Shown in pieces: positions 29,033 to 41,661 of a stretch of 41,661 bases of DNA. The stretch is taken from the NCBI GenBank assembly GCA_947166275.1, contig CAMVDP010000017.1, positions 1 to 41,661 of the forward strand, in the 5' to 3' direction. Both the position numbers and the translations under genes were made by a program. Source of the stretch: an uncultured Clostridia bacterium (GTDB lineage Bacteria > Bacillota > Clostridia > Oscillospirales > Ruminococcaceae). The notes under the pieces are model-generated. The model did no database searches, had not been told where the DNA came from, and saw only the letters and a program-made list of their open reading frames with translations. Within the stretch, counting starts at the first letter, position 1; every line of letters begins with the position of its first letter.

Positions 29033-31078
29033 ATGACACATTACAGGCTTGCCGTGCTCGGCGCGGTGGTATTCTCATGCTTCCTGATCTCATCATACAT
29101 CGGTAGCCTCGCCTCCGTCTTATGCTTCGCGATATGCGGGGCGGCAGCACTCACTATACGCTTCACTCTGAAAAACAAGCCCGCAGTCTTTTTCCTTACA
29201 GGCATGACTGCGGCTTTTCTTATTTACGGCGCGTACTCGGCAGTATTCATCGACCCGGTCGAAAAACTGTACGGCAGTCAGCAGGATGTGACCGCAAAGG
29301 TGCTCTCCGTGAGTGCGCCGGACAATGACACCGTTCGCATGACCTGCTCGGGCAGCGCAGGAGGGGTACCGCTGAAATTTACGCTGTTCTGTGCAGATAC
29401 CGGCATCGAGACCGGCGACACGATATCGACCTGCATAAAGCTGTCAAAGCCGCAGGCATCCGCCTCGTGGAACGGAGACTACGACTACTCCCACGGGGTA
29501 TTCGTCCGTGCGTCCGCGACAGATATCGTCGTTACGGAAAAGCACTCCGGCTTCTCGCTCACCTCGGCGCTCACCGCTTATTCCGCTTATCTGCGGGATC
29601 TGGTAAGAGAGCATCTGCCCGGTGAAGAGGGCGACCTCATGCTCGCGGTATGCTTCGGCGACAAGAGCCGCATGAGCGCGGAGCTGTCCGACGCCGTACT
29701 GCGCAGCGGGCTGTCACACATGACCGCGGTTTCGGGAATGCACATCTCGCTCATCGTAACGGCGGTCATGTCACTGCTGTCACTGGCAGGCGCGGGCAGG
29801 ATGCGTGTCGTGCGGTTCTGTGCCGCGACAGCACTGTCACTGGTATTCATGGTGTTCTTCAACATGACCGCATCGGTATGCAGAAGCGGCATCATGCTGA
29901 TAGCCTGCTACGGCTCTGTGCTGTTAAGACGCGGCAGCTCGCCCGTGAATGCTCTCGGGGCGGCGACACTGCTGATACTGCTCACCGAGCCGTGTGCCTG
30001 CCGGGATATGGGACTTATGCTGTCGGTGTGCGGCACACTTGGCGCGGTATCACTTGCGCCGAAGCTCGGGGAGCTGCTGCGCCGCAGGTGGGAGCTTCCC
30101 GGGTGGGCGGACACGGTGCTTGTATGCGTATGCGCGTCATACTGCACGCTGCCGGTGAGCGCGCTTGCGTTCGGGAAGCTGTCGCCGGTTTCGGTAGTAT
30201 CATCGCTGGCAGTGTACCCGCTGTTTTTCGGGATAATGACAACAGCGCTTATCATCATGTTTTCGGGCGGGCTTCTGGCTCCGGCAATACTGCTCCCCGC
30301 GGGAGTGCTGCTCAAAGCCATGATCGCGATCATGCGGGCACTCGCCGGGTTCAGATACAGCTGTGTGAGCATAAGCGGAGACTGGCTTATCCCGTTCATC
30401 GCAGTCTCCGCGGTGTTCATCGCGCTGACCGCAGCTGTCACATCGGGGTCAGACAAGCGCCTGAACTATCGTACTGCTGCCGCGGTATTCTTCGCGGCGG
30501 CTCTCACCGGTCTCGTGACCGCGCAGAAAGTGCATGACAACGGACTTACCCGCATATTCGTATACTCCGACGGCAAGGACTGCCTCGCGGCGGTCGCCAA
30601 TGACCGCGGAGTTTCAGCATACTGCACGGCGGTGACAAAGAAGCTTTCATCGGCAGCGTACTCGCTGCTCACCGACCTGGGCGCGCAGCGATACGATCTG
30701 CTGTGCGTAATGGACGAGAAGAAACGCAGCGCTGTGAGCTCAAAAGCGTTCGACTCGATAAACGCGCTTGAGAAGCGATATCTCGATAACACCGAGAAGG
30801 TGTATGATGTCTGCGGCAGGTACACTGCCGAGGTATACGAAGATATGGTGCTGCTGGATATCGGCGGTGTGAGCGTATCGATCTCCGATGCGGCAGCCGC
30901 AGAGGTCTACGGCGGACATGACATCGGGATATACAGCGGATACAAAAAGTCCGCGAACTGCGACATAAACGGTGTGACGGTCATGTGCGACAAGCGGTAT
31001 ACCGATGCCGCGCACAACGCATATCTCACCGAGACCGTGCTGCTCATCTCTCCCGACGGCAGAGTAATGATAAAATAG
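29033..31078 (+). CDS. ComEC/Rec2-type DNA-uptake channel protein
   Basis: A 681-residue polytopic membrane protein. N-terminal membrane helices (~5-70) precede an OB-like extracellular domain (~75-170). The Competence domain follows (~195-465) with the conserved SHMTAVSGMHISLI motif and about eight helices. The C-terminal ~170 residues occupy the place of the ComEC metallo-beta-lactamase nuclease domain but lack the HxHxDH metal motif; the region where it should be reads YDLLCVMDEKKRS. ComEC forms the channel for single-stranded DNA in transformation, and the nuclease domain degrades the other strand. Loss of metal ligands makes nuclease activity unlikely. AAGGAGATC precedes the ATG. No other competence gene is near. 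Confidence 0.9.
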   Translation: MTHYRLAVLGAVVFSCFLISSYIGSLASVLCFAICGAAALTIRFTLKNKPAVFFLTGMTAAFLIYGAYSAVFIDPVEKLYGSQQDVTAKVLSVSAPDNDTVRMTCSGSAGGVPLKFTLFCADTGIETGDTISTCIKLSKPQASASWNGDYDYSHGVFVRASATDIVVTEKHSGFSLTSALTAYSAYLRDLVREHLPGEEGDLMLAVCFGDKSRMSAELSDAVLRSGLSHMTAVSGMHISLIVTAVMSLLSLAGAGRMRVVRFCAATALSLVFMVFFNMTASVCRSGIMLIACYGSVLLRRGSSPVNALGAATLLILLTEPCACRDMGLMLSVCGTLGAVSLAPKLGELLRRRWELPGWADTVLVCVCASYCTLPVSALAFGKLSPVSVVSSLAVYPLFFGIMTTALIIMFSGGLLAPAILLPAGVLLKAMIAIMRALAGFRYSCVSISGDWLIPFIAVSAVFIALTAAVTSGSDKRLNYRTAAAVFFAAALTGLVTAQKVHDNGLTRIFVYSDGKDCLAAVANDRGVSAYCTAVTKKLSSAAYSLLTDLGAQRYDLLCVMDEKKRSAVSSKAFDSINALEKRYLDNTEKVYDVCGRYTAEVYEDMVLLDIGGVSVSISDAAAAEVYGGHDIGIYSGYKKSANCDINGVTVMCDKRYTDAAHNAYLTETVLLISPDGRVMIK

Positions 31079-33390: not shown

Positions 33391-33753
33391 TTACTTCTTG
33401 ATAGTTACCTTCTCAACGTCATCGTGAGCGGTGCGGTTCTCCGCTATCGCGGTCTTGAGTACTCTGATACGGTTACGGTCGCTTCCGGTCTCAACGACTA
33501 CGGTCTCTTCCTGGATGCTGAGCACTCTTCCGATGATACCGCCGATGGTGACTACCTCGTCGGCTACCTGGAGATTCTCACGCATCTCCTTTTCCTTCTT
33601 CGCACGCTTCTTCTCTGGGCGTATCAGGATAAAATAGAATACGACCAGCATGAGTGCGAGAGGCACTACGGTGAAGAGAATGGATAATACGCCGTTGTTC
33701 TGAGCGGATGTAGGGTCGGCAGCCGTTGCCGCCATAAGTTCTGCAAAGTTCAT
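33391..33753 (-). CDS. yajC: Preprotein translocase subunit YajC
   Basis: A 120-residue single-span protein that associates with SecDF. The membrane segment (VLSILFTVVPLALMLVVFYFIL, ~22-43) is followed by the signature RPEKKRAKKEKEMRENLQVADEVVTIGGIIG. The YajC-typical small beta domain (VVVETGSDRNRIRVLKTAI) follows. AAAGGA precedes the ATG. It has its own promoter at 33798-33826 and lies between the DUF4015 and M23 genes. It is not next to secD here; in many bacteria yajC-secD-secF is one operon. Confidence 0.96.
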   Translation of the reverse strand: MNFAELMAATAADPTSAQNNGVLSILFTVVPLALMLVVFYFILIRPEKKRAKKEKEMRENLQVADEVVTIGGIIGRVLSIQEETVVVETGSDRNRIRVLKTAIAENRTAHDDVEKVTIKK

Positions 33754-33838: not shown

Positions 33839-35158
33839 TCATCTCATAATATAACTGTCGTATCCCAGTGCACCAAGCGCGGATACGATCTTTGTACGTT
33901 CCGCGTCATCAAATCCCGAGCTGTCGATCACAGGCACTATCTTGAGCCCCTTGCACTTCTTCTCCGCAAGAGCAGTCACCGTCTCTGTGAGCGTCTTTGT
34001 GTCAGCAGGATAGCCCGCCGAAGTCGGAAGGTCGTCGCGGCTTATTATCAGCGCAACCGAGTTGTCATGGAGCTGCGATACGTCGGTAAGGCACTCGGCG
34101 GATCTGCCGTACTTGTCTCCGATCACATCGGAAGCCTTCATCTCAATGATGTTGCCCGATTTGATCACATTGTACAGGTACTTGTATCGGTCATCCGCGA
34201 AATACCTCGCCGCGATGTACTCGGCATCATAATGCTGGAAGTCCGGGAAGGTCACATCAGTGATAAGGATGTTCTCAAAGCCTGCCAGAGCAAGTTCAGT
34301 GGTCACCTTCGCGAAATATTCGCGGGTAGCGTCACTGTCGGGGTTAGCCCAGCGCCGCGGAGGCGACTGGGAATAGTCGAGCCATGAGACCTCGGGGGAA
34401 TCTATACATTTATAGCTCATATCCGTGAAAAGCGCACAGCCCTTTTCGTCCGAAAGCACAGCTATTTCCGCGACAGGTATCAGCTCATTCTCCCGGAACA
34501 GCGTCATTATCTCGTCCAGCGTCATCGCGCCCGCGTCAAGGTCACTTCCCGCTATACCCTCGATAGTGGTCTTATATCTGAACATTCCGTTCCTATCCTT
34601 GAGCTGAAGCACCACGGAGTTGTACCCTCCCGCCTTCGCCTTTGCAAGCACTGCCGCAAGCGAGGAACGATTGGCGAGTGAGCTTGCGGGAGCCTCCACT
34701 GACACAAGTGAATCACTGTTCACCGGCATAAGTATAGTTGTTTCGGGTTTGATCTCGCTTTTTCCGGTGGAATGGGGTTGGTTCGTGCCGACGGAGCCTG
34801 CGTTTTCAGCCGCAGGGACAAGCTCACTTCCGTTATCGTCGGTGGAGACTGCGCTGTCGACCTGACCCTCTGCGGGAAGCTTATCGTCCGGATCGGCTTC
34901 GGGCGTACCGGCTGTGACCTCGTCGCTGTGCAGCGCGGTATAGGAAGCCTGCGGTGTCCATGCCGCGGTGTCATCCTTACCGATGCTGCCGATGTAGTCA
35001 AGCAGCGGCTTTCCTATGCAAAAGCCGAGAAACGCTATCGCCGACGCAGCGACCACAAGCAGCACCGTGCTGAGCAGCTTCTGACCGGTGCTCTTTCGCC
35101 TGCGGTAGAGGTTCTTCGTCTTTTTTATTTTTCTCCCGTAATATCTGCGCTTTTCCAA
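33839..35158 (-). CDS. Membrane-anchored DUF4015 putative glycoside hydrolase-like protein
   Basis: A 439-residue protein with a very basic N-terminus (RRYYGRKIKKTKNLYRRRK), one membrane anchor (~27-52), and an extracellular disordered linker rich in Asp, Ser and Pro (~60-145). A TIM-barrel-like domain follows (~150-439). Barrel landmarks of the DUF4015 family are present: YNSVVLQLKDRNGMFRYKT, LIPVAEIAVLSD, WLDYSQSPPRRWANPDSDATREYF, FENILITDVTFPDF. Sugar-hydrolase activity is predicted for the family but I cannot name a substrate. The start is TTG (35156-35158) after AAAGGGG. It is the last gene of the Rnf-like operon, 38 bases after rnfA, which suggests a functional link at the envelope. Confidence 0.85.
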   Translation of the reverse strand: MEKRRYYGRKIKKTKNLYRRRKSTGQKLLSTVLLVVAASAIAFLGFCIGKPLLDYIGSIGKDDTAAWTPQASYTALHSDEVTAGTPEADPDDKLPAEGQVDSAVSTDDNGSELVPAAENAGSVGTNQPHSTGKSEIKPETTILMPVNSDSLVSVEAPASSLANRSSLAAVLAKAKAGGYNSVVLQLKDRNGMFRYKTTIEGIAGSDLDAGAMTLDEIMTLFRENELIPVAEIAVLSDEKGCALFTDMSYKCIDSPEVSWLDYSQSPPRRWANPDSDATREYFAKVTTELALAGFENILITDVTFPDFQHYDAEYIAARYFADDRYKYLYNVIKSGNIIEMKASDVIGDKYGRSAECLTDVSQLHDNSVALIISRDDLPTSAGYPADTKTLTETVTALAEKKCKGLKIVPVIDSSGFDDAERTKIVSALGALGYDSYIMR

Positions 35159-35196: not shown

Positions 35197-35793
35197 TCAG
35201 ACCGCCGATGTGGTGTAGCCCGTAAACGCGTAAAGCGCGAGCGACAGTATACCGACGTAAACTATCATTATCGGATATCCTCTGAACGCCGCAGGCACCA
35301 GTGAGGAGTTGAGCCTGTCGGCGGCAACGTACAGCAGGTACGCGGCAAGCAGAAAGCCCACACCCGTTCCGAAACCGTAGCCTATATATGTGAAGATGTC
35401 GCCGCCCTGCTGTGAACACAGGAAGAGCGAGCCAATGACCGAGCAGTTGAACACCGAAAGGTGGACATACTTCTTCAGCGAGCGGAAAAGCGGCGGGAAG
35501 AACCGCCAGATGACCACAAGCGATACTATATATATAAAAGCTATCACCAGCACGTACAAAATCGGCATGAAGATGCCGTAGTACTCGTTCTCGCCCAGCA
35601 GCGTGTCAAGAACCCAGACCAAAGGAGAGGATACGGTGGTCACATAGGTTATCGCGACAGCGAAGCCTATGCAGTGAGTCTTGTTTCTCGACGCGTACAG
35701 CAGCACGTTGGCACCAAGCGCGCGCTCAAGCACCAGGTTCTGTACAAATATCGCCACCAGCGCCGCGGAAACGATGTTAAGAAATATCTGCAT
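35197..35793 (-). CDS. rnfA: RnfA-like membrane protein with one iron-sulfur Cys replaced
   Basis: A 198-residue six-helix membrane protein of the RnfA/RsxA/NqrE family. The alignment is clear at NLVLERALG (family NFVLVKFLG), HLSVFNCSVIG (family TTNCAVLG) and FRGYPIMIVYVGILSLALYAFTG (family FRGNAIALI...SLAFMGFSG). In true RnfA, Cys in GLCPF and Cys in NCAVLG hold half of a membrane [2Fe-2S] cluster with RnfE. Here the first is replaced (GANVL; Asn29), and only Cys117 of the second remains. It overlaps rnfE by 17 bases and has GGAGG before its ATG. The redox function of the family is therefore doubtful in this protein. Confidence 0.88.
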   Translation of the reverse strand: MQIFLNIVSAALVAIFVQNLVLERALGANVLLYASRNKTHCIGFAVAITYVTTVSSPLVWVLDTLLGENEYYGIFMPILYVLVIAFIYIVSLVVIWRFFPPLFRSLKKYVHLSVFNCSVIGSLFLCSQQGGDIFTYIGYGFGTGVGFLLAAYLLYVAADRLNSSLVPAAFRGYPIMIVYVGILSLALYAFTGYTTSAV

Positions 35794-36715
35794 TATCGTT
35801 ATCCTCCGTTACGCCGGTGCTTTCGCTGTTTTCTGTGAGAGTTCCGCTATCATCCGCAGTCTCATCAGCGTTCTCATCCCCGGAGCCTTCATCGGCACCG
35901 ACCAGCTCGTTGCCCTCATTTATGATCGCCTCAAACGCCGCGAGAACGTCCTTGTTGTTCAGGAACTCCATGTCGAGCCAGTCGTTCTCTGTGCGTGCGC
36001 GCTTGACGGCAGCCTTGTATATACGTATCTTCTCTCGTTCCTCATGGCGGTGCTTGCCGACAAGGAACTCGCCCATTCCCTCGGCATAGTCCGCGAGAGA
36101 ATCCTCGTCATCCGCATCTGCGTGAGCCTTGCGGTAGTTGTACACCGCTCTGAACAGCCCCGCTCCGATGCCAACGAACAGAAAACCTCCGAACGTTGTC
36201 TCAAGCGCAGGCACCGTGAACAGTATCGGCACCTCGGCTCCGGCGATCTTACCCGTAGCGAGCAGCTCGCGAACGAGCCCCGTCATGAGGCACGCGATGT
36301 CAAATCCCGCAATGAAGCCGAGAACGTCGCTCACCATGTTGGCGTAAGGCTCAAGGTAGAAGCGGGTCTCGGTCTTTGAGAGTATCAGCGAGTTTGTGAC
36401 GAGTATCGGCAGGTATACGCCCGCGGCACCTATCACGGCTTCCCCGAACAGTATGCGCGCAAGCGCCGCCACCGGGATATACACCGCTGCCGCTGCGGCA
36501 GTGTACAGTGTCACTCTTATAGTATATACGATCGTTCTCGGAATAAACCGACAGAGCAGTATCGCCGCGAAAGAAACGAGGGAGAACACAAAACACAGCG
36601 CGAGACTCTTAACGAACGAGGTCGCGCAGGCTATGACCGGTGCAATAAGCATACCGCTCATGAATATCATATTCTGTTTTATGAATCCGTCGCGCGGATT
36701 GATCCTGCTTTCCAT
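35777..36715 (-). CDS. rnfE: RnfE-like membrane protein lacking both cluster cysteines, with acidic tail
   Basis: A 312-residue member of the RnfE/NqrD family, about 100 residues longer than usual. Alignable landmarks: MLIAPVIACATS (family GLCPLLAVTS), GVYLPILVTNSLILSKTE (family GIFIPLIVTNCIVVGRAE), LVRELLATGKI (family LREIIGNGTL) and the final GGFLFVGIGAGL. Both Cys that bind the [2Fe-2S] cluster in true Rnf are replaced, by Ala25 and Ser109. The other Cys of the protein are at non-equivalent places. The C-terminal ~110 residues are cytosolic, helical, then strongly acidic and Ser/Thr/Asp-rich. The gene starts three bases after rnfD and overlaps rnfA. Confidence 0.86.
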   Translation of the reverse strand: MESRINPRDGFIKQNMIFMSGMLIAPVIACATSFVKSLALCFVFSLVSFAAILLCRFIPRTIVYTIRVTLYTAAAAAVYIPVAALARILFGEAVIGAAGVYLPILVTNSLILSKTETRFYLEPYANMVSDVLGFIAGFDIACLMTGLVRELLATGKIAGAEVPILFTVPALETTFGGFLFVGIGAGLFRAVYNYRKAHADADDEDSLADYAEGMGEFLVGKHRHEEREKIRIYKAAVKRARTENDWLDMEFLNNKDVLAAFEAIINEGNELVGADEGSGDENADETADDSGTLTENSESTGVTEDNDNADIS

Positions 36716-36718
36716 GGC

Positions 36719-38119
36719 TTACTGTCCTTGTTTGTTGTTTTTCTGCTGTGATCTCTTGAGCGGCTGCTTGATGATGTGCTGTATAAAGCCCTTCTTCTCC
36801 TCGGTCTTGGGAGCAGACTCCTTGTTATGCCGCACTATCATCATGCGCATGGCGTTCATGTAGTTGTTTTCGCCGTCGCGTATCTGCTTTTTACGCACAA
36901 GCTCGTCCTTGCGACGCTTGATGCGCAGATTTTCGGCGTATCTTGTAATTATGTTGGTCTTTTTGCGATTGATTTTTATGACCTTATTGTCTATCGGCGG
37001 CATATTGTAATTCGTCGGTGGAACAATAATTTCCATAGTATCAGTGAGCTTCGGTCTGCCCTCGTTCTCCGCCTGGCTGCGGAGCTTCTCGTATCTGCCC
37101 ATGTTACCGCGCATATAGGAGAAGGACCTCTTTATAGCGCCCGCGACTGCCGCACAAAGCTCGTCAAGGTGCAGCGAGAACGCATTGGCTATGAGGATAA
37201 CGAACAGGAACGAGCCCTCCACCTTTCCGAAGTGGCGGAACAGACAGCCGACTATGCCTATTATGAAGCCATAGGCTATCTTTCCTTTTATGGTCTTCGG
37301 CATGGTCTGCGGGTCAGCAGCGAGGAACACGAACCCGAACAGCAGATATCCGCCGGACAGCTCCATGAGCATGGTATCTTCGATACTCGAAAACACAGGG
37401 AACAGCGCAGTGAGCGCACAGTACGAGCCAAGACCGAACAGCGCTACCAGCGGCGACAGCGACCTGCGCAGCATGAGACATACACCGCACACCGCGATGA
37501 TAAGGAACTGCGTTGAGCCCATGGGTCCCGCGACATTTCCGAGCATAAGGTTCTCAAGCGACACATCGGGCGCGGTACCGAGCTTCAGCAAATAGCTTTC
37601 GACACCGGAAACGAGCGGTACGCCGACATCTCCCCACAGTTCGGCCTTCGAACCCACGGCAGGGTACAGCAGCATATCGTTCGGATAGCATATTATAAGA
37701 AACGCGACCGCAACACAGGTCGGGTTGAAAATGTAGTTGTCCTTTCCGCCGAAAATGTGCTTCACGGCGATCGCGAGCAAAGCTCCGCCCGCAACGATCC
37801 CGTAATGCACGGAAGCAGGCATCATAAGCGCGATGCAAAGCCCCGACGCTATCGTGGACAGGTCGCGGGGATTATAAGTCTTGCGCGTCATACGGCAGAA
37901 TATCATATCCGCGATAACGCATACAAGCACCGAGCCCGCGCTGATAACGAGCGCCCTGTAGCCGCTCTGCCACACGCTCATGCCGAGGAGCGCCACAAGA
38001 CAGATAAGCTGGTCGCCGTATATGGACTTCGACTTTCGCTGCCGCTTGACAGCGCTTGTCTCGTATGTTTTTACGTCGCTGTCAAACTTGTCCAGCAGTT
38101 CAATGGTATTATCCGACAT
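36719..38119 (-). CDS. rnfD: RnfD-like membrane protein lacking the flavin-attachment Thr, with basic tail
   Basis: A 466-residue member of the RnfD/NqrB family. The membrane part (~35-335) keeps the family motifs: GGKDNYIFNPTCVAVAFL (~124-141), LGNVAGPMGSTQFL (~193-206), AADPQTMPKTIKGKIAYG (~267-284) and RHFGKVEGSFLFVILIANAFSLHLDEL (~295-321). In RnfD and NqrB a Thr in an SGAT-type motif binds FMN covalently; here the equivalent stretch reads SGVESY (171-176), with Glu174 in place of Thr. A cytosolic tail of ~135 residues, rich in Lys and Arg, is absent from standard RnfD. It is the first gene of an operon with rnfE, rnfA and the DUF4015 gene. No rnfB, rnfC or rnfG is adjacent. Its start is only 39 bases from the divergent mecA-like start. 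Confidence 0.87.
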   Translation of the reverse strand: MSDNTIELLDKFDSDVKTYETSAVKRQRKSKSIYGDQLICLVALLGMSVWQSGYRALVISAGSVLVCVIADMIFCRMTRKTYNPRDLSTIASGLCIALMMPASVHYGIVAGGALLAIAVKHIFGGKDNYIFNPTCVAVAFLIICYPNDMLLYPAVGSKAELWGDVGVPLVSGVESYLLKLGTAPDVSLENLMLGNVAGPMGSTQFLIIAVCGVCLMLRRSLSPLVALFGLGSYCALTALFPVFSSIEDTMLMELSGGYLLFGFVFLAADPQTMPKTIKGKIAYGFIIGIVGCLFRHFGKVEGSFLFVILIANAFSLHLDELCAAVAGAIKRSFSYMRGNMGRYEKLRSQAENEGRPKLTDTMEIIVPPTNYNMPPIDNKVIKINRKKTNIITRYAENLRIKRRKDELVRKKQIRDGENNYMNAMRMMIVRHNKESAPKTEEKKGFIQHIIKQPLKRSQQKNNKQGQ

Positions 38120-38158: not shown

Positions 38159-38719
38159 ATGTATTACGATGCTTTGAGCAAAAATACCGTCAAGATCACG
38201 CTCACCGACCGGGATATGCGTGAAAATTCGATACGCGCCGAGGGGCTCCGCACGCGAAGCGCCGACTCAAAGCGCAGCCTTATCGACTTCCTTAAGAAGC
38301 TTCAGGCGGAAAGCAAGCTGTTCGCGGGCAAAAGCGCCGAGCGGCTGTTTCTTGAAGCGTTCCCGTCCGAAGACGGCGGCTGCGTACTGTATGTGAGCAC
38401 GCTCGGCTGCGACATCCTACCACAGCCCGACTCTGTGCCCCGCAGGCACGTCGTTATGTGCGGCACAGCCACTCTCGCGGATGCGGCACAGCTGTGCAGA
38501 TGCGTCAGCCGCAGTGTGAGCGGCTCGTCGCTGTATCGCCTTGACGGCAGGTATGTTCTTTTATTCAGGGTCCGTCCGAGCGCCGCGGACACCGTATCAC
38601 GCATGATCGCCGAATACGGCGTGCTGTCCGATGACCCGGTGGACATAGCGTTCACCGCCGAGCACGGCACAGTTCTTTGCGCTTCCGGCGCGGTACGAAG
38701 GCTGACCGGACTATGCTGA
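38159..38719 (+). CDS. MecA-like adaptor protein
   Basis: A 186-residue protein resembling MecA, the adaptor that delivers substrates to ClpC. The N-terminus (LSKNTVKITLTDRDMRENSIRAEGL) follows the MecA pattern of an N-terminal recognition domain, then KRSLIDFLKKLQAES. The C-terminal domain contains the expected ATLADAAQLCRCVSRSVSGSSLYRLDGRYVLLFRV (helix, then a YxxxGxYYLLL-type strand). The frame is open far upstream, but the MecA-like N-terminus begins at ATG 38159, after GGGGGT. It converges with rpe (seven bases between stop codons) and diverges from rnfD. Similarity to MecA is moderate and from memory. Confidence 0.72.
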   Translation: MYYDALSKNTVKITLTDRDMRENSIRAEGLRTRSADSKRSLIDFLKKLQAESKLFAGKSAERLFLEAFPSEDGGCVLYVSTLGCDILPQPDSVPRRHVVMCGTATLADAAQLCRCVSRSVSGSSLYRLDGRYVLLFRVRPSAADTVSRMIAEYGVLSDDPVDIAFTAEHGTVLCASGAVRRLTGLC

Positions 38720-38726
38720 ACCCGTA

Positions 38727-39365
38727 TCAGCCCTTCAGCTCGCGGACCGCTGCGGGCATATCCGACGATTTGAACAGGTATGTCCCCGCTACGAGCACAT
38801 TTGCGCCCGCGTCACGGACGAGCTCTGCGGTCTCGGGATTGATCCCGCCGTCAACCTGTATGTCCTTGTCGGGAGCTATCGAACGCACTGTGCGGATTTT
38901 GTCGAGCGTATCGTGTATAAATCCCTGGCCGCCGTAACCCGGCTCCACGGTCATTATCAGCACCATGTCCGCCGCCTCGATGTATGGTCTTACGGAAACG
39001 ACGGGTGTGCGTGGCTTTATGGCGACTCCCGCCTTGCAGCCGAGGCTGTGGATATCCTCGATGATCGTTTTCGGGTTACAGAAGCTCTCAACGTGGAATG
39101 TTATCATGTTGGCACCCGCGTCCGCGAACAGCTTCAGCTGCCGGGCGGGATGCTGTACCATGAGATGAACGTCAAGAAAGGCGTGGGTATGCGGCTTTAC
39201 CGCCTCCAGCACCGAGCTTCCGAATGTGATATTCTCTACAAATTCGCCGTCCATAACATCAAAATGCAGCCATGCAGCACCGCTCTTGTCGACTTTCGCG
39301 GCAGTCCCGCGAAGATCCGAAAGATCGGAATTGAGTATGGACGCGGATATAACAGTTTCGGGCAT
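38727..39365 (-). CDS. rpe: Ribulose-phosphate 3-epimerase
   Basis: A 212-residue TIM barrel that interconverts ribulose 5-phosphate and xylulose 5-phosphate in the pentose phosphate pathway. The catalytic and metal ligands are visible: SASILNSD (Ser near start), WLHFDVMDGEFV (His and Asp), DVHLMVQHP (His), MTVEPGYGGQGF and IQVDGGIN (Asp), with the phosphate-binding GANVLVAGTYLF at the end. The length is slightly short of the usual 215-225. Metal-dependent epimerase function is secure. It has its own promoter (39418-39446) and GGAGGG before the ATG; it may be monocistronic. Confidence 0.96.
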   Translation of the reverse strand: MPETVISASILNSDLSDLRGTAAKVDKSGAAWLHFDVMDGEFVENITFGSSVLEAVKPHTHAFLDVHLMVQHPARQLKLFADAGANMITFHVESFCNPKTIIEDIHSLGCKAGVAIKPRTPVVSVRPYIEAADMVLIMTVEPGYGGQGFIHDTLDKIRTVRSIAPDKDIQVDGGINPETAELVRDAGANVLVAGTYLFKSSDMPAAVRELKG

Positions 39366-41362: not shown

Positions 41363-41661
41363 ATGCCTGAAAACAAACTCAAGACCACAGTGCTGACGCT
41401 GATACTCGCATCCATGATAATCTCCGGATGCTCGAACGGTACGACTGCGGTACAGACGACTGCACAGACAACGGTACAGACTGCCGTACGGGAGGCCGAA
41501 CAGACCTCTGCCGAACAGGAGGAACCCGATTCCGGTCAGTCTGATAATGATGAGGCTTCCGAAAAAGACCCGAAGAAAGAGAAAGAGAAAGAGAAAGAGG
41601 AAGCACAGGAATACCTCAATGCGCTCTCTGACGCATTCCACAGATACGCTGACGCAAGCGG
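41363..41661 (+). CDS. Lipoprotein, N-terminal part only
   Basis: The first 99 residues of a protein that continues beyond the window. The signal peptide ends in ISGC with Cys23 as the lipidated residue. After it come a Thr/Gln/Ala linker with repeated VQTT/AQTT units (~30-42) and an acidic stretch. A KEKEKEKEE-type charged helix (~72-82) follows, then the start of a helical domain (AQEYLNALSDAFHRYADA). GGAAGAG precedes the ATG. The linker style matches the two lipoproteins of the mscS operon. Function unknown because the main domain is outside. Confidence 0.82.
   Translation, partial: MPENKLKTTVLTLILASMIISGCSNGTTAVQTTAQTTVQTAVREAEQTSAEQEEPDSGQSDNDEASEKDPKKEKEKEKEEAQEYLNALSDAFHRYADAS

Follow-up and report, generated by a model that had tools for sequence, protein, structure and literature searches.

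Three genes for divergent Rnf membrane subunits

The contig CAMVDP010000017.1 (assembly GCA_947166275.1), from an uncultured Clostridia bacterium of the Ruminococcaceae (order Oscillospirales), was analysed from position 1 to position 41,661, a stretch that we call the window. Its minus strand carries three closely packed genes, D', E' and A', whose products are homologues of the RnfD, RnfE and RnfA membrane subunits by Pfam matches and by alignment with structures in the PDB and, for D', also by fold. D' (36719-38119, minus strand) encodes a 466-residue RnfD/NqrB-like membrane subunit (PF03116, E = 5e-57), E' (35777-36715, minus strand) a 312-residue RnfE/NqrD-like subunit with a long acidic C-terminal tail (PF02508, E = 7e-17), and A' (35197-35793, minus strand) a 198-residue RnfA/NqrE-like subunit (PF02508, E = 3e-28). 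An original prediction, made by a model from the letters of the DNA and a list of open reading frames (ORFs), had described three intact and tightly coupled frames at these positions with these affinities, and both parts of the description hold: D' and E' are separated by 3 base pairs (bp), E' and A' overlap by 17 bp, and a purine-rich stretch lies 5' of all three starts.

The three proteins miss the NCBIfam cut-offs for Rnf subunits (TIGR01946, 115.5 against 207.05 bits; TIGR01948, 38.7 against 213.4; TIGR01943, 91.0 against 229.3) as well as those for Nqr subunits (nqrB, 75.7 against 349.9 bits; nqrD, 22.3 against 244.85; nqrE, 70.9 against 247.55), whereas a canonical D and a canonical A protein from the same genus do reach theirs. 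As predicted for the operon, RnfC, RnfG and RnfB have no profile match anywhere in the window. The gene 38 bp downstream of A' (33839-35158, minus strand) encodes a DUF4015 protein (PF13200, 45.9 bits, above the gathering cut-off of 27). Annotation by Pfam only would name D', E' and A' as Rnf subunits and so mislead metabolic models of these bacteria.

Cofactor and gate residues

The alignments with PDB structures place Ala25 and Ser109 of E' at the cluster cysteine positions of RnfE and Asn29 of A' at the first of those in RnfA, with Cys117 retained at the second, so that one of the four cysteines that hold the intramembrane [2Fe-2S] cluster is left; these are the substitutions named in the original prediction. 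Where RnfD has the threonine that covalently binds flavin mononucleotide (FMN), D' reads SGVE (residues 171-174; 37598-37609, minus strand), again in agreement. The residue that occupies the threonine column depends on the alignment, being G172 here and E174 by the spacing used in the prediction, and neither is Thr or Ser.

Other sites are kept. According to the available part of a study of the Acetobacterium woodii complex (Kumar et al. 2025, PMC11889175), riboflavin contacts RnfD N123 and D249, FMN is bound covalently at T156, and the Na+ gate is surrounded by RnfE R67, E115 and N107 and by RnfA E88, T110, T111, N112 and Q85. In the alignment, residues matching both riboflavin contacts are present in D', as N132 (37724-37726, minus strand) and D269 (37313-37315, minus strand). 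E' retains all three RnfE gate residues, as R67, E116 and N108, and A' retains RnfA N112 as N116; RnfA E88 is replaced by L92 and T110 by V114. A second structural study, in its available part, assigns Thr153, Arg130, Glu185 and Ser284 to the FMN_D site, with Asn90 lying near FMN_D together with Glu185 (Vitt et al. 2022, PMC9588780). D' has V138 for Arg130, S202 for Glu185, M99 for Asn90 and L305 for Ser284. As judged from these alignments, the window has lost the cluster and the site of FMN attachment but keeps the riboflavin residues and some of the cation gate. The view that the redox sites had been removed is thus right for the cluster cysteines and the FMN threonine and wrong for the riboflavin residues. 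The Vibrio cholerae Nqr residue labels used in the alignment are presumed ones.

Conservation and selection among relatives

We compared 85 divergent loci of the order: 44 from the window's genus, in 44 assemblies, 17 from other lineages in which an RnfC-like gene, C', precedes D', and 24 from other lineages that lack C'. The loci were chosen for a divergent or second PF03116 match among the matches listed, and counts over them are not order-wide frequencies; they include the near-duplicates L033/L035, L130/L131 and L074/L155, the alignments are automatic, and the profiles behind the counts of MecA, rpe, YajC and DUF4015 given below were made from some of the same loci.

No cluster cysteine is retained in 33 divergent loci, one in 51 and two in 1 (three of the 84 loci with at most one cysteine lack an A' sequence and were scored on E' alone), compared with four in 19 and two in 1 of 20 canonical loci. 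The loss is thus not random among relatives; the residues that replace the cysteines vary. Cys117 of A' looks like a leftover, since it is not conserved in the genus (Cys in 29 of 42 A' rows, one of which is truncated there). The Arg130 and Glu185 positions are replaced in 85/85 divergent loci, and these losses are telling because 20 RnfD-family sequences of other orders keep Arg130 in 20 cases and Glu185 in 19; the riboflavin aspartate is Asp in 17 of those 20 and Glu in 3.

Within the genus, the retained residues are uniform, with N132, D269, R67, E116 and N108 each found in 44/44 loci and N116 in all 41 that are readable. Among columns at least 95% invariant in the 20 canonical loci, the genus still keeps 24 of 78 in D, 8 of 57 in E and 11 of 56 in A. 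The three RnfE gate side chains are among those 8 E columns, which would happen by chance with a probability of 56/29,260, or ~0.002, for a choice of residues made post hoc.

The FMN threonine column behaves differently inside and outside the genus. It is Thr in 19 and Ser in 1 of the 20 canonical loci; in the genus it is Gly in 37, Ser in 5, a gap in 2 and never Thr, and a [GS]xE motif occupies the SGVE site in 42 of 44 loci. By this alignment no acceptor is left at the column in the window or in most loci of its genus. C'-bearing loci have Ser in 9, Thr in 3, Gly in 4 and Ala in 1, and the other C'-less loci have Ser in 16, Thr in 4 and Gly in 4. Since 32 of the 41 loci beyond the genus thus still carry Ser or Thr, covalent FMN is possible in those lineages, and a loss of the FMN threonine in all relatives, which we considered, is rejected. 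So is the glutamate of SGVE as a general replacement for threonine, as Glu is limited to the genus. One locus, L148, matches what we take to be the strict ApbE motif.

Could the locus be what is left of a second rnf operon in decay? Cofactor residues have been lost, RnfG, RnfB and often RnfC are gone, and one locus (L032) is without A'. However, the ratio of nonsynonymous to synonymous substitution (dN/dS) is 0.02-0.18 in 13 genus pairs (one A' comparison being partial) and 0.04-0.25 in four other pairs, one value of which was not computable, motifs are conserved throughout the genus, and gene order is conserved across families. D' and E' occur in 44/44 genus loci and A' in 42. Decay is therefore highly improbable, and the prediction that a retained complex, not a degraded operon, lies here is upheld. 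An assembly artefact is rejected too, given the same losses in 44 genus loci from as many assemblies, as is a wrong start or frame that hides a Cys or Thr, since the alignments cover the domains.

A' is missing from 3 of the 85 loci. In L070 and L075 the contig ends, and in L032 it does not: this locus (genome G043, 68% complete) has D'E' followed by unrelated genes, with no A' or DUF4015 gene over ~7 kb more, and either represents a version that was rearranged or has two genes only, or was wrongly assembled. A' is truncated in L065. A quick tree of 84 D sequences, built by maximum likelihood, puts 50 divergent D's on one supported side, and L072, L075 and L171, also divergent, nearer the canonical side. 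A single origin is likely, and not proved because of these three.

A proposed DUF4015 partner

The DUF4015 protein has a basic N-terminus, a long helix at residues 24-61 that is probably a transmembrane anchor, a disordered linker and a triosephosphate isomerase (TIM) barrel at ~151-439. A DUF4015 match occurs in 69 of the 85 loci, and in 68 it lies no more than 800 bp from the last E/A gene. Six of the loci without a match are cut by contig ends, and ten have room for the gene, namely L032 and nine loci of family f24. That the barrel is an active glycosidase is doubtful, as position 301 is Asp in only 15 of 50 relatives. Our literature search found one paper that mentions the domain, a sporulation study whose available part names DUF4015 fused to YkyA.

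An RnfC-like protein in other lineages

C' keeps all eight [4Fe-4S] cysteines in 17/17 loci, and the GxGGAxFPT motif for FMN and reduced nicotinamide adenine dinucleotide (NADH), present in the 8 canonical RnfC sequences compared, is found in 0/17. Since the cysteines are kept and the motif is gone, C' might feed a D' flavin but would not take electrons from NADH by way of the motif. Together with the Ser/Thr column outside the genus, the C' clusters make the removal of redox sites too broad a description for the relatives at large. No C' gene was seen in the 44 genus loci or the 24 others, some stretches being short.

These features bear on an alternative in which D'E'A' is a redox device that works with flavin only. 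The riboflavin of D', or perhaps FMN in some lineages, would trade electrons with C' or, in the genus, with free ferredoxin or flavodoxin, and a redox state would be sensed rather than passed across the membrane. The uniform riboflavin residues of the genus would fit such a device, as would those of the C'-bearing loci (Asn in 15/17, Asp in 14/17), the intact clusters of C' and the Ser or Thr at the FMN column of 12 of the 17 C'-bearing loci. The idea is serious because a C-D pair can persist alone with its riboflavin residues: twelve RnfC-like/RnfD-like (C-D) operons of other families (L076, L077, L164-L170, L172, L173 and L289) have no recognisable E or A after D, and their D proteins hold both residues in 12/12. 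In these operons C has the eight cluster cysteines and lacks an intact FMN motif (10 aligned), and the FMN threonine region of D is altered, with several still reading Ser/Thr-Pro. They differ from D'E'A' in having no recognised E or A and in their D proteins, which group with canonical RnfD in the tree (L289 is not in it). Against a flavin-only device, C' is found at 0/44 genus loci, and the riboflavin Asn is lost in 17 of the 24 C'-less loci outside the genus. We consider it possible though somewhat unlikely; it is the main rival to the transport function proposed below, and a flavin redox sensor or exchanger is favoured where C' is present.

Separately, the gene after D in the C-D operon L077 matched an RnfB query. 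The C-terminal tail of D' (residues ~340-466) is conserved in the genus, and in the stretch around EIIVPPTNYNMPPIDNK (36719-37102, minus strand) several residues are invariant in 17 sequences; in the genus this tail might be a docking site in place of C'.

Canonical Rnf in the same genomes

Genome-wide searches covered the RnfD family (PF03116), PF02508 and ApbE. Of the 71 genus genomes, the window's included, 58 show two or more PF03116 matches among the matches listed, 12 show one and one shows none. The 58 genomes, and the C-D-G-E-A-B operon found in all 10 genus genomes whose canonical locus was fetched, would allow D'E'A' to be an accessory or regulatory paralogue of canonical Rnf that enters mixed complexes. 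This is weakened by the genomes that have no canonical match: by score, 11 of the single-match genomes are divergent and one is canonical, and the 44 genus loci take in all 11. The draft genome of the window (G000, 81% complete) has one PF03116 match, two PF02508 matches and no ApbE match, and G067 (98% complete) likewise has D'E'A' only and no ApbE match. G034 (96%), G038, G047, G052 and G058 lack a canonical RnfD match and have one ApbE match each, and G265, of family f24 (99% complete), has the divergent type only. A paralogue that works through canonical Rnf is very unlikely on these counts.

Comparison with known systems

D'E'A' resembles the Rnf complex (RnfABCDGE; 7zc6, 9eri, 8ahx) in the homology and order of D, E and A and in the retained RnfD riboflavin residues and RnfE R67, E115 and N107. 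It differs in that the window has no RnfC, RnfG or RnfB match, has lost the FMN threonine and three of four cluster cysteines, and has a DUF4015 gene next to A'. NqrB, NqrD and NqrE of Na+-NQR (NqrABCDEF; 7xk3, 8a1t) are likewise homologous to D', E' and A', and the DP at the D' riboflavin Asp is as in NqrB, but the cofactor losses are the same as against Rnf and the nqrB/D/E cut-offs are unmet; NqrA, NqrC and NqrF are absent from the annotated neighbours in the window, although no search aimed at them was made. By sequence, D'E'A' is a variant of the Rnf/Nqr kind that lies outside the Rnf complex as defined by its cofactors.

NQR/RNF-like flavinylated electron-transfer clusters put the RnfD/NqrB domain outside the canonical operon, and the available part of their description defines them by a flavinylation-associated cluster and an RnfD/NqrB protein fused to an NqrF-type domain (PMC8238504). 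D', in contrast, has neither the threonine nor a second Pfam domain, and the draft genome of the window is without an ApbE match. That part of the article describes no D'E'A'-type system, and our search of a single collection of open-access papers, which does not extend to other papers, found no description of one.

D' could also be read as an Amt- or urea-transporter-like barrel, in which case the locus would encode a transporter for one particular solute, such as a flavin or another small molecule, with DUF4015 binding or processing glycan outside; we think this unlikely. Identity to Amt/Rh and urea transporters is 7-12% in those alignment rows.

Outside the order, we compared 20 RnfD-family matches (L270-L289), mostly second matches, from 33 genomes. 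An RnfG match accompanies 17 of the 20, and the E and A cysteines that could be read are present except for the first A cysteine of L273. L274 is cut by its contig, L270 and L285 are C-D loci with [ST]P in D, and L289 is a C-D locus without it. No (C')D'E'A' locus was seen among these 20, and as the model scores the window's D' at 278 bits and canonical proteins at up to 301, weak cases could be missed.

A putative transport core without its redox chain

We propose that D'E'A' is a functional, redox-truncated Rnf membrane core that moves or gates a cation or solute, a reading to which we give a probability of roughly 0.38; its function probably differs from that of canonical Rnf. The three proteins would form a complex in which E' and A' keep the alternating-access gate and D' is a ligand-filled barrel with a predicted flavin pocket, and this complex, most likely no longer carrying electrons across the membrane, would move or gate a small cation or solute with no pumping driven by electrons. 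The DUF4015 barrel, putatively membrane-anchored, would occupy the extracytoplasmic position of RnfG, and C', where present, would dock there on the D' side and could control whether a flavin in D' is oxidised or reduced. The retained RnfE gate residues and the D' fold would allow the non-redox ion or small-molecule conduit suggested in the original prediction. A more specific version, about which we are doubtful, makes (C')D'E'A' with DUF4015 a distinct class, evolved in this order, of ion or solute channel or transporter that is flavin-gated rather than electron-pumped and in which an extracytoplasmic, glycan-binding DUF4015 barrel replaces RnfG. Its premise that transmembrane electron transfer has been lost, with the riboflavin pocket and RnfE cation gate kept in the window's genus, is tentative to the same degree.

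Several observations weigh against a transport core. The A. woodii study, in its available part, places the Na+ path in RnfA/E and finds none in RnfD, contrary to earlier proposals for RnfD/NqrB, and reports that T111G has no phenotype save under sodium depletion (PMC11889175). The genus has lost RnfA E88, T110, T111 and Q85, all named around the Na+ gate. In other lineages the retained residues are less well conserved: in C'-bearing loci R67 is found in 11/17 and E116 in 3/17, and in the other C'-less loci the riboflavin Asn is found in 7/24 and the Asp in 14/24, with R67 in 24/24 and E116 in 19/24. Ser or Thr remains at the aligned FMN column in most of these lineages. The loss of the FMN contacts Asn90 and Ser284 tells little, as they are absent from 20 and 19 of the 20 RnfD-family sequences of other orders. 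DUF4015 goes undetected in 10 of the 85 loci even though their contigs leave room for it, and 9 of these belong to family f24. An obligatory three-gene unit is doubtful because L032 has D'E' without A' beside them, and the retained residues may serve the structure.

The coupling of electrons to ion movement in Rnf and Nqr is under debate, and D'E'A' would be a natural, uncoupled form in which to test which part carries the ions. If our proposal is true, evolution can put Rnf subunits to other uses, and the proposal would point to a function for a locus found repeatedly in gut bacteria of the order.

Neighbouring genes and further observations

Upstream of D', in the opposite direction and 39 bp away, lies a MecA-like gene (38159-38719, plus strand; PF05389, 50.9 bits against a cut-off of 22.5), the start of which was taken as the ATG closest to the divergent D' start. 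Beyond it lies rpe, for ribulose-phosphate 3-epimerase (38727-39365, minus strand; TIGR01163, 238 bits against 212.6), a syntenic anchor found upstream of D' on the D' strand within 4.5 kb in 80 of the 85 loci. The mecA profile matches in 63 of the 85 loci, with 43 of 44 in the genus and 20 of 41 elsewhere. Downstream of A', the DUF4015 gene is followed by a YajC gene (33391-33753, minus strand; TIGR00739, 88 bits against 44.2) and then by an M23/G5 peptidase; yajC matches in the stretches of 33 of the 44 genus loci, not in all of them downstream. In the nearest relative, ORFs that look by eye like SecD/SecF lie downstream of the YajC and M23 genes (L036:15120-16901).

The acidic tail of E' spans 35777-36140 (minus strand), and E' proteins of the genus are 205-256 residues long in 26 loci and 297-347 in 18. 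Close public relatives (66 loci) are metagenome assemblies, mostly labelled Ruminiclostridium sp., Oscillospiraceae bacterium or uncultured Clostridia, and a number come from ruminant gut samples by title. L196 and L202 were deposited as Roseburia sp. and Bacteroides sp., although the locus matches the window's genus, and these labels may be wrong. Elsewhere in the window, a 681-residue ORF (29033-31078, plus strand) resembles, by eye, a ComEC/Rec2 competence protein.

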